From Chryseobacterium sp. Leaf180 (lineage in GTDB: Bacteria > Bacteroidota > Bacteroidia > Flavobacteriales > Weeksellaceae), in assembly GCF_001424585.1 (NCBI RefSeq), contig NZ_LMPJ01000001.1, forward strand, positions 464,442 to 528,441: a DNA stretch of 64,000 nucleotides, in the 5' to 3' direction. The notes beneath the pieces were generated by a model. The model did not search any database and was not told the origin of the DNA. It saw only the letters and a list, made by a program, of their open reading frames with translations. Shown piece by piece: positions 3,273-9,774 of this stretch; the stretch's first letter is position 1, and every line of letters begins with the position of its first letter. Position numbers and translations under genes: made by a program.

Positions 3273-3292
3273 ATACTATGCATGCATAGTAT
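3273..3292. promoter_or_regulatory. perfect 20-bp palindrome, probable MarR operator 1
   Basis: The sequence is a perfect inverted repeat with half-site ATACTATG around a CATG centre. It lies about 120 bp before the marR start and is nearly identical to a second site at 3357-3376. Twenty-bp palindromes of this kind are typical MarR dimer targets. Which promoter this distal copy serves is not clear. Confidence 0.65.
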
Positions 3293-3356
3293 TATGCAAA
3301 TCATACATTTAAACTTATTGATTTTCAGTGCTTTAACGTACATTAACTATTATTAA

Positions 3357-3376
3357 ATACTATGCATGCATAATAT
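3357..3376. promoter_or_regulatory. near-perfect palindrome, probable MarR operator 2
   Basis: This has the same half-site ATACTATG, CATG centre, and CATAATAT as the other arm, so one base pair breaks the symmetry. It ends 4 bp before the predicted -7 box TACATTTG of marR and therefore covers the -33 region. Binding here would block RNA polymerase, which suggests autorepression. Confidence 0.7.
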
Positions 3377-3380
3377 TTGC

Positions 3381-3388
3381 TACATTTG
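3381..3388 (+). promoter_or_regulatory. predicted -7 box of the marR promoter
   Basis: TACATTTG matches the Bacteroidetes -7 consensus TAnnTTTG and lies 26 bp before the marR ATG. The -33 region has no clear TTTG and is occupied by the palindrome at 3357-3376. Confidence 0.5.
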
Positions 3389-3414: not shown

Positions 3415-3864
3415 ATGGATAATGAAAAAAACAAAACCGAAAACGTAGATCTTATTTTAAAGCAAACGTGGCTTTCTGTCTCAAAAATGTACACCGAGAT
3501 GGCGCAGGAACATGATTCTACTGCTGTACAGGCACTTACACTTTTAAAAATAGATCCAAAAGAAGGCACGCGAAGCACAAATCTCGGTCCGAAAATGGCG
3601 ATTGAACCCACTTCGCTCACAAGAATCATCAAACTTCTGGAAGACAACGGATATATTTATAAAGAAAAAACTACCACTGATAAACGTGAGGTAATTATTA
3701 AACTCACGGAAAAAGGGTTGAATTCTAGAAATATGTCTAAAGAAGTTGTGGTGAATTTTAATAAGAAAGTGATGGAGAAAATCGCGCCTGAAAAACTAGA
3801 AGTTTTTAAAGATGTGATGAATGAAATAATGAAAATCGCCAACGACATCAACAACCGAAAATAA
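3415..3864 (+). CDS. MarR-family transcriptional regulator
   Basis: This 149-residue protein has the MarR winged-helix layout: an N-terminal dimerisation helix, a recognition region around residues 55-80 (TSLTRIIKLLEDNGYI), a wing with TTDKREVIIKLTEKG near 84-98, and a long C-terminal dimerisation helix. MarR proteins are usually repressors released by small ligands. Two matching palindromes sit in its own upstream region, and the fadN gene begins 62 bp downstream on the same strand with only a short weak hairpin (3888-3902) between. Control of fatty acid degradation, perhaps with an acyl-CoA as inducer, is therefore the best inference. The ligand is not determinable from sequence. Confidence 0.88.
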   Translation: MDNEKNKTENVDLILKQTWLSVSKMYTEMAQEHDSTAVQALTLLKIDPKEGTRSTNLGPKMAIEPTSLTRIIKLLEDNGYIYKEKTTTDKREVIIKLTEKGLNSRNMSKEVVVNFNKKVMEKIAPEKLEVFKDVMNEIMKIANDINNRK

Positions 3865-3926
3865 AAATCATTCAACAAATTTTATTAAAGCCGTAGGCTT
3901 TATATCACCAAATAAATAGTTTATAG

Positions 3927-6320
3927 ATGAAAAGAAGAATCAAACACGTAACGGTTTTAGGTTCTGGAATTATGGGAAGCGGTATTGCAGCACACTTTGC
4001 CAACATCGGCGTGCAGGTTCTACTGCTCGATATTGTTCCTTTTGAGCTGAATGAATCCGAACAGAAAAAAGGTTTGACCAAAGACGACAAAGCCGTTCGT
4101 AACCGAATTGCTTCTGAAAACTTTGAAAAACTGAAGAAATCTAGTCCCGCTCTACTCTATTCCCCAAAATTTGCGGAAAGAATTAAAGTCGGAAATTTTG
4201 ATGATGATTTAAAGAAGATTAAAGATACCGACTGGATTATTGAAGTTGTGGTTGAAAAACTCGACATCAAAAAATCGGTTTACGAAAAAATTGAACAGTT
4301 CAGAAAACCGGGAACTTTAGTTTCATCCAATACTTCCGGAATTCCAATCAATATGTTGGTAGAAGGACGAAGTAACGATTTCAAAAAATATTTTGCAGGA
4401 ACACACTTTTTTAATCCGGTAAGATATTTACCACTTTTAGAAGTGATCCCAACCAAAGAAACGGATCCGGAAATTGCCGAATTCTACATGAATTACGGAG
4501 CGAAATTCTTAGGAAAAACCACGGTTTTAGCAAAAGATACTCCGGCGTTTATCGCCAACAGAATCGGAGTTTTCTCGATGATGGATTTACTTCATAATGT
4601 TCAGAAATTAGGTTTAAATGTTTCTGATGTCGACAAATTAACAGGTCCAATTATTGGCCGGCCAAAATCTGCAACGTTCAGAACTGCCGATGTTGTTGGC
4701 TTGGATACTTTGGTGATGGTAGCGAACGGCGTTCGTAATAGCGGTGCTGAGGCAAATGATTTTAATGACGTTTTTGCTCTTCCAGACTACATCCAGAAAA
4801 TGGTGGATAACAAATGGTTGGGTTCAAAAACCGAACAGGGTTTCTACAAAAAAGTGAAAGGTAAAGACGGTAAATCTGAAATTCACGGTTTAAATCTGGA
4901 TACTTTAGAATACGAGCTTCAGGGAAAATCTTCATTCCCAACTTTAGAATTAACTAAAAATATCGACAAGCCAATTGATAGATTTAAAGTTTTGATTGGC
5001 GGTAAAGACAAAGCTGGAGAGCTTTACAGAAAATCCTTAGGTTCTCTTTTCGCTTATGTTTCTCACAAAGTTCCAGAGATTTCAGATGAAGTGTACAAAA
5101 TTGACGATGCGATGCGAGCAGGTTTCGGTTGGGAAAACGGTCCTTTCGAAATTTGGGATTCGGTTGGCGTTCAAAAAGGAATTGAATTGGCTACAGAAGC
5201 TGGTTATGAAGTTTCTGATTGGGTGAAAAACGTTGAATCATTTTACAAAGTAAACGAAGACGGACAAAGTATTTTCTTCGATAAAAACTCAGGAAACTAC
5301 AATAATATTCCGGGTCAGGAATCATTTATCATTTTAGATAATATCAGAAAAAACAAGACGCTTTGGAGCAACTCAGGTTCTTCGATTGAAGATTTGGGCG
5401 ACGGAATTATCAATTTTGAAATCCGTTCTAAAATGAATTCTTTAGGTGGTGAAGTTCTGGACGGCTTAAACCGGGCCATCGATTTAGCTGAAAAAGAATA
5501 CGACGGATTGGTGATCGGAAACCAGGGAACGAATTTCTCTGTCGGAGCCAATTTAGCCATGATTTTAATGATGGCCATCGAGCAGGATTGGGATGATTTG
5601 AATATGGCAATTGCGTATTTCCAGAAATCAATGATGAGAGTTCGTTATTCTTCAATTCCTGTCGTAGTCGCTCCTCACGGAATGACTTTAGGCGGTGGAT
5701 GCGAAATGACGATGCACTCAGACCGCGTTGTTGCAGCCGCAGAAACTTACATCGGATTGGTAGAAACCGGAGTTGGCGTAATTCCCGGCGGTGGTGGAAC
5801 GAAAGAATTTGCATTGAGAACTTCAAGAGAATTTCACAGTGACGATGTGAAAAACAACCGTCTTCGTGAAGCTTTCATGAATATTGCAATGGGAAAAGTA
5901 GCCACTTCAGCGTACGAAGCTTACGATATGGGAATTCTTGAAAAAGGAAAAGACATCGTAGTTGTTGATAAAAGAACGCAGATTATGACTGCAAAAATGA
6001 TGGCGAAAAGTCTAGCAGAACACGGCTACACGCAACCGATCGAGCAAACGGTAAAAGTTCTTGGAAAAGATGCTTTAGGAATGTTCTACGTTGGGACTGA
6101 TCAGATGTTAACCGGTAATTTCATCTCCGAACACGACAAGAAAATCGCAGATAAATTAGCCAACGTTTTAGTAGGTGGAAATCTTTCTGAACCAACAGTT
6201 GTTACCGAACAGTATTTACTGAATCTTGAAAGAGAAACTTTTTTACAGCTTTGTGGTGAAAGAAAAACTTTGGAGAGAATTCAATACATGTTGCAGAAAG
6301 GGAAACCTCTTAGAAATTAG
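3927..6320 (+). CDS. fadN: 3-hydroxyacyl-CoA dehydrogenase / enoyl-CoA hydratase, FadN type
   Basis: This 797-residue bifunctional enzyme performs the hydration and NAD+-dependent oxidation steps of beta-oxidation. The NAD-binding dehydrogenase domain comes first (GSGIMGSGIAAHFANIG near residues 12-28), with the dehydrogenase C-terminal domains up to about residue 460. The crotonase-fold hydratase domain is at the C-terminus, with FSVGANLA near 535, GGGCEM near 588, and a Glu in GLVETGVG near 613. This order is that of Bacillus FadN, not of E. coli FadB, and the gene order fadN-fadA-fadE here is also the Bacillus one. The thiolase follows after an interrupting four-helix-bundle gene. Confidence 0.93.
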   Translation: MKRRIKHVTVLGSGIMGSGIAAHFANIGVQVLLLDIVPFELNESEQKKGLTKDDKAVRNRIASENFEKLKKSSPALLYSPKFAERIKVGNFDDDLKKIKDTDWIIEVVVEKLDIKKSVYEKIEQFRKPGTLVSSNTSGIPINMLVEGRSNDFKKYFAGTHFFNPVRYLPLLEVIPTKETDPEIAEFYMNYGAKFLGKTTVLAKDTPAFIANRIGVFSMMDLLHNVQKLGLNVSDVDKLTGPIIGRPKSATFRTADVVGLDTLVMVANGVRNSGAEANDFNDVFALPDYIQKMVDNKWLGSKTEQGFYKKVKGKDGKSEIHGLNLDTLEYELQGKSSFPTLELTKNIDKPIDRFKVLIGGKDKAGELYRKSLGSLFAYVSHKVPEISDEVYKIDDAMRAGFGWENGPFEIWDSVGVQKGIELATEAGYEVSDWVKNVESFYKVNEDGQSIFFDKNSGNYNNIPGQESFIILDNIRKNKTLWSNSGSSIEDLGDGIINFEIRSKMNSLGGEVLDGLNRAIDLAEKEYDGLVIGNQGTNFSVGANLAMILMMAIEQDWDDLNMAIAYFQKSMMRVRYSSIPVVVAPHGMTLGGGCEMTMHSDRVVAAAETYIGLVETGVGVIPGGGGTKEFALRTSREFHSDDVKNNRLREAFMNIAMGKVATSAYEAYDMGILEKGKDIVVVDKRTQIMTAKMMAKSLAEHGYTQPIEQTVKVLGKDALGMFYVGTDQMLTGNFISEHDKKIADKLANVLVGGNLSEPTVVTEQYLLNLERETFLQLCGERKTLERIQYMLQKGKPLRN

Positions 6321-6344
6321 ACTTGAGACTGAGAGACTCGAGAC
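6319..6344. repeat. left GACT-rich imperfect inverted repeat
   Basis: A run built from GAGACT units begins inside the fadN stop codon. Its first 21 bases match the reverse complement of 6771-6790 at about 16 positions. The pair flanks the four-helix-bundle gene and could mark the ends of an inserted cassette. Confidence 0.45.
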
Positions 6345-6450
6345 TATAAGAGTTTTCAATTTTAGAATTAAAAATAGAATATAAACCTAATTTAAATCTA
6401 CTGATAATGCATAACATTAGAAAATTAAAAATCTGGAATATTCAATTGAT

Positions 6451-6759
6451 TTGTGTGTAGATGTTTATGAAGCGTTAGCAAATATGCCAAACGATGAGCG
6501 ATATGGACTTTCTTCACAAATCAAAAGGTCAGCGGTTTCAATTCCTTCCAACATCGCAGAAGGCGCAGGAAGAGATACAAATCCCCAATTTTCACATTTT
6601 TTAAATATTGCATACGGTTCTTCTTATGAACTTCAAACACAATTAATTATTTCTGAAAGATTAAATTTTATTTCACCTGAAGTAAATGAATCTTTATTGA
6701 GTAAGTTAAATGGAGTTCAAAAAATGGTTTATGTTTTTAAAGAAAATATTAATAAATAA
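6451..6759 (+). CDS. four-helix bundle protein (23S rRNA IVP family), 5' end apparently frameshifted
   Basis: The open frame codes for residues typical of the IVP/four-helix-bundle family (TIGR02436-type): RYGLSSQIKRSAVSIPSNIAEGAGR, then the FLNIAYGSSYELQTQL helix. Only a TTG at 6451 is available as start. In another frame, an ATG at 6407 encodes the usual family N-terminus MHNIRKLKIW. Adding one base near 6440 would join the two parts, so a 1-bp deletion seems likely. The family's function is not settled; members were first seen inside 23S rRNA intervening sequences. Here the gene sits between fadN and fadA, flanked by GACT-rich inverted repeats, and looks like a late insertion into the operon. 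Confidence 0.7.
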   Translation: MCVDVYEALANMPNDERYGLSSQIKRSAVSIPSNIAEGAGRDTNPQFSHFLNIAYGSSYELQTQLIISERLNFISPEVNESLLSKLNGVQKMVYVFKENINK

Positions 6760-6767
6760 TTAAATGG

Positions 6768-6790
6768 CAAGAGTCTCAAATCTCTTGTCT
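6768..6790. repeat. right GACT-rich imperfect inverted repeat
   Basis: This is the inverted partner of 6319-6344, just after the four-helix-bundle gene and 18 bp before fadA. Similarity is imperfect, so it may be a decayed end of a mobile cassette. Confidence 0.45.
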
Positions 6791-6808
6791 AAAAATCTGT
6801 AATCTACA

Positions 6809-7987
6809 ATGAAACAAGCATATATAATCAAGGGGTTCAGAACCGCCGTTGGAAAAGCTCCAAAAGGTAGTTTAAGATTCACCCGTCCCGACGTAATGGC
6901 AGCAACAGTTATCGAGAAATTGATGGCAGCCGTTCCGCAATTAGATAAAGACAGAATCGATGATTTAATCGTCGGAAACGCAATGCCGGAAGCAGAACAA
7001 GGCTTAAATGTCGCACGTTTAATTTCTTTGATGGGATTACAAACCGACAAAGTTCCCGGAGTTACCGTGAACAGATATTGCGCATCAGGAAGTGAAGCGA
7101 TTGCTATTGCTTCGGCAAAAATTCAGACTGGAATGGCGGATTGTATTATCGCAGGTGGTACAGAATCAATGTCTTACATTCCGATGGGTGGTTACAAACC
7201 CGTTCCTGAAACTGAAATAGCAAAGTCAAATCCCGATTATTATTGGGGAATGGGATATACTGCAGAAGAAGTGGCAAAACAGTTCAACATTTCCCGTGAA
7301 GAGCAGGATCAGTTTGCTTTTGAATCTCATCAAAAAGCTTTAAAAGCGAATGCAGAAGGGAAATTTGCAAGCCAAATTGTTCCTCTTCCTGTAGAATATA
7401 ATTTTCTGGATGAAAATCAGAAAATGCAGACGAAAAAATTTGATTTTTCTGTAGATGAAGGCCCGAGATTAGACACTTCTCTGGAAGGTTTAGCAAAATT
7501 AAAACCCGTTTTCGCAAACGGAGGAAGTGTAACAGCCGGAAATTCTTCACAAATGAGTGACGGTGCAGCTTTCGTAATCGTGATGTCGGAAGAAATGGTA
7601 AAAGAATTAGGATTGGAGCCGGAAGCAAGATTGGTTGCATACGCTGCAGCCGGACTTGAGCCAAGAATAATGGGAATGGGACCAATTTATGCGATTCCAA
7701 AAGCACTAAAGCAAGCAGGTTTAGAATTAAAAGATATTGAATTAATCGAGTTAAACGAAGCATTTGCATCACAATCTGTTGCTATAAAAAAAGAACTGAA
7801 CCTCAATCCAGATATTCTGAATGTGAACGGTGGTGCCATCGCGCTCGGACACCCACTGGGTTGTACAGGAACAAAATTAACCGTTCAGCTTCTCCACGAA
7901 ATGAGAAAGCGTGGAAACAAATACGGAATGGTTTCTATGTGCGTGGGAACAGGACAAGGCGCGGCGTCAATTTTTGAACTTTTATAA
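6809..7987 (+). CDS. fadA: acetyl-CoA C-acyltransferase (thiolase)
   Basis: This 392-residue thiolase carries the three catalytic signatures: the nucleophilic Cys91 in NRYCASGSEA, His348 in GHPLGCTG, and Cys378 in MCVGTGQG. It cleaves 3-ketoacyl-CoA with CoA, releasing acetyl-CoA, as the last step of beta-oxidation. It sits between fadN and fadE, the order seen in Bacillus fadNAE. The length is normal. A biosynthetic acetoacetyl-CoA thiolase is an alternative on sequence alone, but the neighbours favour degradation. Confidence 0.92.
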   Translation: MKQAYIIKGFRTAVGKAPKGSLRFTRPDVMAATVIEKLMAAVPQLDKDRIDDLIVGNAMPEAEQGLNVARLISLMGLQTDKVPGVTVNRYCASGSEAIAIASAKIQTGMADCIIAGGTESMSYIPMGGYKPVPETEIAKSNPDYYWGMGYTAEEVAKQFNISREEQDQFAFESHQKALKANAEGKFASQIVPLPVEYNFLDENQKMQTKKFDFSVDEGPRLDTSLEGLAKLKPVFANGGSVTAGNSSQMSDGAAFVIVMSEEMVKELGLEPEARLVAYAAAGLEPRIMGMGPIYAIPKALKQAGLELKDIELIELNEAFASQSVAIKKELNLNPDILNVNGGAIALGHPLGCTGTKLTVQLLHEMRKRGNKYGMVSMCVGTGQGAASIFELL

Positions 7988-8004
7988 ATTTAAAATTAAC
8001 AGTT

Positions 8005-9774
8005 ATGAACAATATATTAAAGGGCGGCGAATTCCTCATTAAAGAAGTCGTTGCAAATGAAGTTTTCACGTTAGAAGAGCTTTCTGAGGAGCAAAAAATG
8101 CTGAGAGATTCGGCGAAAGAATTTATCGACCGCGATGTGATTCCACAAAATCCACAGTTTGAAAAGAAAAACTACGCACTGACAGAAGAGAAAATGCGTC
8201 AGCTTGGTGAAATGGGACTTTTGGGTGTTGCCGTTCCTGAAGAATATGGCGGACTCGGAATGGGCTTTGTCAATACCATGCTCGCCTGCGATTACTGTTC
8301 GGGTGCAAACGGTTCTTTAGCAACCGCTTACGGCGCACACACAGGAATTGGAACACTTCCGATTTTACTTTACGGAACCGAAGAACAGAAGCAGAAATAT
8401 CTTCCGGATTTAGCGACAGGAACCAAATTTGGCGCATATTGCCTTACAGAACCTGATGCCGGATCGGATGCCAACTCTGGGAAAACCAGAGCCAAACTTT
8501 CTGCAGACGGATCACATTATGTGATCAACGGACAGAAAATGTGGATTTCGAACGCCGGTTTTGCTGAAATATTTATCGTTTTTGCAAAAATTGAAGACGA
8601 TAAAAATATTACCGGATTTATCGTTGAAAAGAGCAAAACTGAAGGTCTAAGTTTCGGTGAAGAAGAGCATAAACTGGGCATACGCTCCTCTTCTACCCGT
8701 CAGGTTTTCTTTAATGATATGAAAGTTCCCGCAGAAAATCTTTTAGGAGAGAGAAATAACGGTTTTAAAATCGCTTTGAACGCTTTGAACGTGGGAAGAA
8801 TTAAACTGGCCGCAGCAAATCTTGACGGACAGAGAAGAATCTTGAATCATTCTATTCAGTATTCAAACGAGAGAAAGCAGTTTGGTGTTTCAATCTCAAC
8901 TTTCGGGGCGATCAGAAAGAAAATTGCAGAAATGGCAACGGGAGTTTTCGTTTCGGAAGCAGGATCTTACCGTGCTGCAAAAAATGTGGAAGATAAAATT
9001 GCAGAACTTACCGCTGGCGGAATGACTCATCAGGAAGCCGAACTGAAAGGTGTTGAAGAATTTGCGGTAGAAGCTTCTATTCTGAAAGTTTTTGTTTCCG
9101 ATCTTACGCAACACACTGCAGATGAAGGTCTTCAGGTGTATGGTGGAATGGGATTTTCGGAAGAAATGCCTATGGAAGCTGCGTGGAGAGATGCCAGAAT
9201 CGGCAGAATCTATGAAGGAACCAACGAGATCAACCGTCTGCTTTCTGTAGGAATGTTAATTAAAAGAGCCATGAAAGGTGAGCTCGACCTGCTTTCTCCT
9301 GCGATGGCAATCAGCAAAGAACTGATGGGAATTCCATCTTTTGAAGTTCCGGATTATTCTGAATTCATGAGTGAGGAAAAAACCATTATTGCCAATCTGA
9401 AAAAAGTATTTCTGATGGTTGCCGGTGCTGCGCTTCAAAAATACATGATGGATATTGAGAAACAACAGCATTTACTGTTAAATGCTTCGGAAATTTTAAA
9501 TCAGATTTATATGGCTGAATCTGCTATTCTCAGAGCCGAGAAAAGTTTTGCACCGGATTCTGCAGAATCGGCGATGGCTCAGCTCTTCCTTTACAAAGCT
9601 GTTGAAAAGACGATTGCTGCCGCTAAAGAAGGCATTATTTCTTTCGCTGAAGGTGATGAGCAACGCATGATGCTTTCCGGTTTGAGAAGATTTACAAAGT
9701 ATACCAATCATCCGAATGTTGTCGCTTTAACGGAAAAAATTGCTGCACATTATATTTCAAAAGGTCATTATTAA
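8005..9774 (+). CDS. fadE: acyl-CoA dehydrogenase, FadE type
   Basis: The 589-residue flavoenzyme catalyses the first, FAD-dependent step of beta-oxidation. The core ACAD domains span roughly residues 20-420: YCLTEPDAGSD near 149-159, the SNAGFAEIFIVFAKIEDD mid-domain, and YGGMGFSEEMPMEAAWRDARIGRIYEGTNEI near 379-409 with a catalytic-type Glu in YEGTNE. A further helical C-terminal extension of about 150 residues makes it long, like Bacillus FadE and the very-long-chain class. It starts 17 bp after fadA, and a strong terminator follows. It is the last gene of the operon. Confidence 0.92.
   Translation: MNNILKGGEFLIKEVVANEVFTLEELSEEQKMLRDSAKEFIDRDVIPQNPQFEKKNYALTEEKMRQLGEMGLLGVAVPEEYGGLGMGFVNTMLACDYCSGANGSLATAYGAHTGIGTLPILLYGTEEQKQKYLPDLATGTKFGAYCLTEPDAGSDANSGKTRAKLSADGSHYVINGQKMWISNAGFAEIFIVFAKIEDDKNITGFIVEKSKTEGLSFGEEEHKLGIRSSSTRQVFFNDMKVPAENLLGERNNGFKIALNALNVGRIKLAAANLDGQRRILNHSIQYSNERKQFGVSISTFGAIRKKIAEMATGVFVSEAGSYRAAKNVEDKIAELTAGGMTHQEAELKGVEEFAVEASILKVFVSDLTQHTADEGLQVYGGMGFSEEMPMEAAWRDARIGRIYEGTNEINRLLSVGMLIKRAMKGELDLLSPAMAISKELMGIPSFEVPDYSEFMSEEKTIIANLKKVFLMVAGAALQKYMMDIEKQQHLLLNASEILNQIYMAESAILRAEKSFAPDSAESAMAQLFLYKAVEKTIAAAKEGIISFAEGDEQRMMLSGLRRFTKYTNHPNVVALTEKIAAHYISKGHY

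Follow-up and report, generated by a model that had tools for sequence, protein, structure and literature searches.

The degradation of fatty acids in Proteobacteria is controlled by FadR of the GntR family or by PsrA and FadP of the TetR family, and the available excerpts of PMC5343134 describe one regulator acting on dispersed operons. These proteins have the same job as that proposed here for a MarR-family regulator from Chryseobacterium, but they belong to unrelated protein families and recognize other operators. Within the MarR family, CouR is the repressor of p-hydroxycinnamate catabolism in Rhodococcus, and it shares with the locus described in this report the control of a CoA-thioester catabolic pathway by a MarR protein. 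The inducer of CouR is a CoA thioester, and p-coumaroyl-CoA removes CouR from DNA, whereas the free acid and CoA do not (PMC4737184, available sections). CouR differs in that its pathway is for aromatic acids and its sequence is only distantly related; CouR-named chains are found among the PDB relatives by profile search (6c28, E 1.8e-8). FabT, the regulator of fatty acid synthesis in Streptococcus, shares both the family and the connection to fatty-acid metabolism, and its DNA-bound structure (6jbx) can be superimposed on the predicted model of our regulator with a Z of 15.0 and an rmsd of 2.3 over 140 residues at 16% identity. FabT represses synthesis genes together with acyl-ACP, according to the accessible part of PMC5487221, but the regulator in our window is located with degradation genes, and it scores 28.8 bits against the FabT equivalog NF050133, for which the cutoff is 200.

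Among the literature matches listed, which are open-licence papers and do not speak for everything in print, none describes a MarR regulator of β-oxidation in Bacteroidota, and no account of how fatty-acid degradation is switched in these bacteria was found in the open literature searched. A Leptospira paper was considered as an account of such a regulator and was set aside because the terms occur in unrelated places in its available text. A MarR-controlled catabolic regulon is already known as a kind, and it is the particular regulator, operator, and regulon for which no description was found in that literature.

The window, which is the whole 64-kb stretch of DNA that was analyzed, contains a MarR-family gene and the fatty acid degradation genes behind it in a single direction from 3415 to 9774, all on the plus strand, as was originally predicted. 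The regulator gene (149 amino acids, 3415–3864) is followed after a gap of 62 bp by a gene for a fadN/fadB-like bifunctional enzyme (3927–6320; PF02737, PF00725, and PF00378), and then by genes for a fadA-like thiolase (6809–7987; PF00108 and PF02803, with TIGR01930 above its cutoff) and an acyl-CoA dehydrogenase of the Bacillus FadE type (8005–9774; NF058590, 699.3 bits against a cutoff of 600). The operon had been named fadNAE, a name that omits an additional gene between those for the fadN-like enzyme and the thiolase. This gene (6451–6759, plus strand) encodes a four-helix-bundle protein of the 23S rRNA-intervening-sequence type (PF05635 and TIGR02436 above cutoff). The upstream neighbors of the palindromes discussed below are genes for a FecCD-type permease and an ABC ATPase.

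The regulator was found by the curated profile PF01047 (43.2 bits, cutoff 24.6) to carry the winged-helix domain of the MarR family, and its Pfam matches at E ≤ 0.001 are to MarR and related winged-helix models, with no GntR or TetR domain among them. The AlphaFold2 model (mean pLDDT of 89.6) has the MarR fold over the whole chain, and named MarR-type structures are at the top of the fold search with Z values of 14–16 over 128–149 residues. In 27 aligned MarR proteins, the region of the recognition helix has invariant residues, among them S67, L68, and R70. The regulator reaches no equivalog cutoff among those listed, including those of FabT and HpaR (TIGR02337, 47.6 bits against a cutoff of 121.2), and the profile and fold searches of the PDB indicate a MarR protein and give no pointer to a ligand. 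A palindromic operator at the promoter of its own gene, which is a trait of MarR proteins, is predicted here from sequence and conservation.

Two nearly identical 20-bp palindromes are located upstream of marR, at the positions and with the spacing that had been claimed. The distal one, the predicted operator O2 (3273–3292, no strand assigned; ATACTATGCATGCATAGTAT), is a perfect palindrome, and the proximal one, the predicted operator O1 (3357–3376, no strand assigned; ATACTATGCATGCATAATAT), is one base removed from O2 and from a perfect palindrome. The two centers are 84 bp apart, which at 10.5 bp per turn makes 8.0 turns. O1 and O2 were the sole matches when the window was scanned for the half-site pattern ATACTATG-N4-CATAGTAT with three mismatches or fewer; shuffled windows gave a mean of 0.08 matches, and two matches were reached in none of 100 shuffles. 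The palindromes are not due to chance. In the 3.35-Mb genome, the same pattern with a free 4-bp spacer and up to three mismatches gave 7 matches versus 12 for the reversed control, and thus this loose pattern is background beyond the best three sites and tighter patterns were adopted. One three-mismatch match from the loose pattern (L004) was dropped because it does not count as a site under the tighter patterns. When the full 20-mer was searched with three mismatches allowed, the genome gave three sites and the reversed control none. The constant part of the operator was found by comparison to be TATGC-NN-GCATA. The palindromes of the original prediction are retained, and its half-site of ATACTATG with a 4-bp spacer is therefore replaced by one of approximately TAYTATGC with a 2-bp spacer.

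O1 ends 4 bp before an inferred promoter box for marR and the fad genes (TACATTTG, 3381–3388, plus strand), which fits TAnnTTTG, the −7 box of flavobacterial promoters in the available text of PMC9723704. The six specified bases of this box are constant across 81 aligned upstream sequences. The mean frequency of the commonest base in the alignment of 81 upstream regions is 0.99 in O2, 0.98 in O1, 0.87 between the sites, and 0.82 in the leader. The right end of O2 is overlapped by an imperfect dyad, TATTATGC-NNN-TCATA (3290–3305, no strand assigned). Of the 81 aligned sequences of Chryseobacterium type, 80 retain this dyad, as do 6 of the 7 twin-site loci from other genera, and it may offer a further protein contact. 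Because of this overlap, O2 may bind two dimers or another protein, and because the interval between O1 and O2 is fairly conserved as well, O2 may have a different partner.

The third copy in the genome, ATATTATGCATGCATAATAT, is located 83 bp before etfB, which is followed by etfA. ETF accepts electrons from acyl-CoA dehydrogenase, and thus all three sites of the genome, each at marR-fad or etfBA, point to one pathway. The genome-wide motif search that had been proposed as a check returned these two targets only. The etfBA site is preceded by a gene for a short-chain dehydrogenase (L003, 731–1465). Matches to this gene occur in each of the 20 congener loci retrieved, beside the site in 18 of them, and in 9 of 16 etfBA loci of other genera.

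An orthologue of MarR was found at E ≤ 1e-79 in 58 of 59 genomes of the same genus. When 22 genomes of the genus, including our own, were searched with up to two mismatches, 21 contained exactly three sites and one contained a single site, compared with 2 sites in total for the reversed control in the same genomes. The third-site locus was read in 21 of the 22 (G041 was left out); etfB is the next gene in 20, and in one the contig ends first. The genome with one site (G056) keeps etfBA and its site. A contig end truncates the fadN-like gene of this genome, so the absence of the MarR locus is a gap in the assembly and not a demonstrated loss. Both sites are found upstream of marR in 80 of 80 Chryseobacterium-type loci, these being the closest named ones (78 from Chryseobacterium and two from Weeksellaceae assemblies) and not independent, as some Chryseobacterium records are the same assemblies as other genomes in the set. 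The spacing from O1 to O2 is 83 bp in 79 of these loci and 84 bp in one, and no further site was found in the 80 loci with up to one mismatch.

In the family, MarR is present at E ≤ 1e-15 in 135 of 148 genomes and in 30 of 33 genera. A search with TAYTATGCNNGCATARTA allowing one mismatch gave matches in 20 of 23 genomes from other genera, with 46 sites versus 2 for the reversed control. These 46 sites are before marR (28), etfBA (16), and pckA (one), with one lacking an evident gene, and marR-fad or etfBA thus account for 44. Some of the other genera have a second site at 77–84 bp, and others have the proximal one only. Of 20 family loci, hand-picked at one genome per genus from the 135 MarR-positive genomes, 18 have the core TATGC-NN-GCATA with no mismatches in the 250 bp preceding marR. 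The core precedes marR in 16 of 19 loci from other families of Flavobacteriales, from which one locus (L155, genome G071) with a weak MarR match (E 8.2e-6) and no site match was kept out. It also precedes marR in 19 of 23 other loci of the class, which are the best-scoring of 95 MarR-positive genomes, with L236–L242 (our own genome and Flavobacteriales) kept out; one class locus (L247) has little upstream sequence before the contig end. Several of the loci come from the same genus or family, as L257, L258, and L261 do, and the counts are thus not from independent loci. Neither the reversed pattern nor equal stretches inside and after the gene gave any match to the core, even with one mismatch. 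The MarR proteins of the order and class loci are 35–46% identical to the one in the window. A failure of the palindromes to be conserved before orthologous genes had been named in advance as a refutation; they were instead found to be kept in the genus, the family, the order, and most of the class loci examined. In six loci (L145, L147, L149, L242, L250, and L084), tandem operators 28–31 bp apart before marR replace the pair at 83–84 bp.

Among 198 genomes of the class, 95 have MarR (E ≤ 1e-20) and 165 have a fadN-like gene, and all 95 are among the 165. Adjacency could be scored in 88 genomes, and in 82 of these marR and the fadN-like gene are neighbors on one strand; for the other 7 of the 95, the position of the fadN-like gene was not listed, and one genome in which the two genes touch (G356) was scored as not adjacent. 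Since the fadN-like gene is found with no MarR match at E ≤ 1e-20 in 70 of the 165, the enzyme is not dependent on this regulator throughout the class. Those 70 genomes must control the enzyme otherwise or carry a more distant relative of MarR.

The relaxed pattern TDBTATGCNNGCATAVHA with no mismatches was matched in 21 of 27 MarR-bearing genomes and in none of the remaining 6, with 36 sites versus 2 for the reversed control. There are 19 sites before marR, 4 before etfBA, and 13 elsewhere. Pfam was applied to ten proteins at nine of these 13 extra sites, and the other four (L300, L301, L303, and L305) were judged by eye. At eight of the 13, the site precedes or coincides with the beginning of a gene whose predicted function is in keeping with lipid use or gluconeogenesis, and for the other five no such neighbor was seen. 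The genes at the eight sites encode an FMN oxidoreductase (for which Pfam gives domains only, and which we read as FadH-like in build), a protein of the OMPP1/FadL family, a patatin phospholipase, a fatty acid hydroxylase, and a secretory lipase, and at one site a nitronate monooxygenase followed by an enoyl-CoA hydratase. PEPCK is the predicted target in two genomes from two families, and every other extra target is from one genome. The operator is located between fabF-like and pckA genes in genomes of two families (L135, 1955–1972, and L298, 2003–2020). From their position, the pckA sites hint that gluconeogenesis may be under the same regulator. The etfBA site was found in all four other Flavobacteriales with MarR, three times exactly and once with one mismatch 225 bp away, and is weak or absent outside of the order (4 of 23 class loci, with 2–3 mismatches). 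The original interpretation of the regulator and its targets is supported at the level of sequence, and the predicted targets are wider than stated, with etfBA and, elsewhere, some lipid genes and pckA added to the fad operon.

It is with considerable confidence that we propose that MarR represses its own gene, the fad operon, and etfBA through the palindromes and is released by a fatty-acid intermediate. What was observed, and speaks for this reading, is the sites themselves, their positions, their conservation, their near-exclusivity, and the joint loss of regulator and operon in 12 family genomes, along with genome G100, in which MarR was kept, the fadN-like gene was lost, and no site is found. 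The binding, the repression, the ligand, and the role of O2 in the following scheme are those that we infer. A dimer of MarR (3415–3864) would bind TAYTATGC-NN-GCATARTA and thereby repress marR, the adjoining fad operon, and, at a separate place in the genome, etfBA. At O1, which ends 4 bp before the −7 box, the dimer would exclude RNA polymerase, and since marR is the first gene of the operon, this position suggests negative autoregulation. O2 is eight turns farther upstream and faces the same side of the helix; a second dimer there would make the repression tighter and may form a bridge with the first. Uptake and activation of fatty acids would yield an intermediate, most likely an acyl-CoA, that binds the MarR dimer; the dimer would then leave the DNA and allow the β-oxidation enzymes and the electron carrier to be made together. 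An acyl-CoA is the likeliest ligand by analogy with CouR. The β-oxidation genes of Flavobacterium psychrophilum are raised strongly in fish mucus and plasma, which fits with induction by fatty acids, and MarR is not mentioned in the available portion of that paper (PMC9723704).

It can also be imagined that MarR acts at these sites as an activator, or that a ligand tightens its binding in the manner of FabT and acyl-ACP. MarR proteins that activate and the co-repression mode of FabT both exist (PMC5487221, available text), and the location of O2 upstream of the promoter would suit an activator. However, O1 is immediately upstream of the −7 box, where a dimer should block the polymerase. In 43 of 62 loci, the core is followed at no more than 45 bp by a TAnnTT[TC]G box, which starts 8–13 bp after it in 38, counts for which there is no control for the box. 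We regard activation or co-repression as unlikely.

Another transcription factor could bind the palindromes and control fad and etfBA, with the neighboring marR being merely one of its targets. A palindrome of 18–20 bp near their own gene is usual for MarR proteins, and the site precedes the same MarR gene in most loci from the genus to the class. The relaxed site was found in none of nine class genomes lacking both MarR and the fadN-like gene (one match for the reversed control), versus the 21 of 27 with MarR. In genus g43, exact sites are present in the three genomes with MarR (G167, G192, and G201) and absent from six MarR-less genomes, which together have 6 single-mismatch matches versus 9 for the reversed control; in one of the six (G138), etfBA is retained but has no site. 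However, of the 13 family genomes without MarR, 12 (all except G056) are without a fadN-like gene at E ≤ 1e-60 as well, and since gene and regulator are lost together, gene loss alone could explain part of this pattern. A second protein may bind as well, given the conservation of the region between the sites and of the dyad that overlaps O2, and genome G100 has MarR without sites. The orphan orthologue in G100 (L079, 2225–2686; 71–72% identity) is also without a fadN-like gene. On this evidence, control by another factor seems quite improbable. It is scarcely credible that the palindromes are RNA hairpins or a terminator, for although O2 begins 26 bp past the upstream gene's stop codon and, as RNA, has a folding energy of −10 kcal/mol (z of −1.91), the search gave no terminator-like site, O1 folds no better than shuffled sequences (z of −0.07) and lies upstream of the −7 box, and the same sequence recurs before the unlinked etfBA.

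The depth to which the regulator, the operator, and the operon are conserved together is unusual, and across much of the class this trio is probably a main on/off switch for the use of fat. We would further suggest, tentatively and with more doubt than conviction, that the protein is an ancient master regulator throughout the Bacteroidia: a repressor sensing acyl-CoA and acting through a single conserved operator that governs β-oxidation and ETF and, in certain lineages, also uptake of the FadL type, lipases, a reductase resembling FadH, and the gluconeogenic PckA. In this view, the repressor would span two operators separated by eight turns in Chryseobacterium and some of its relatives, and the distal operator would be a composite that includes the third, overlapping dyad. 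The identification of a regulator, a precise operator, and a short list of targets makes the question of how fatty-acid use is switched testable. The pairing of regulator and operator allows the prediction of regulons in many genomes, as the regulator is found in 95 of the 198 sampled from the class, and the marR-fad promoter is a candidate fatty-acid-responsive promoter for this group of Bacteroidota.
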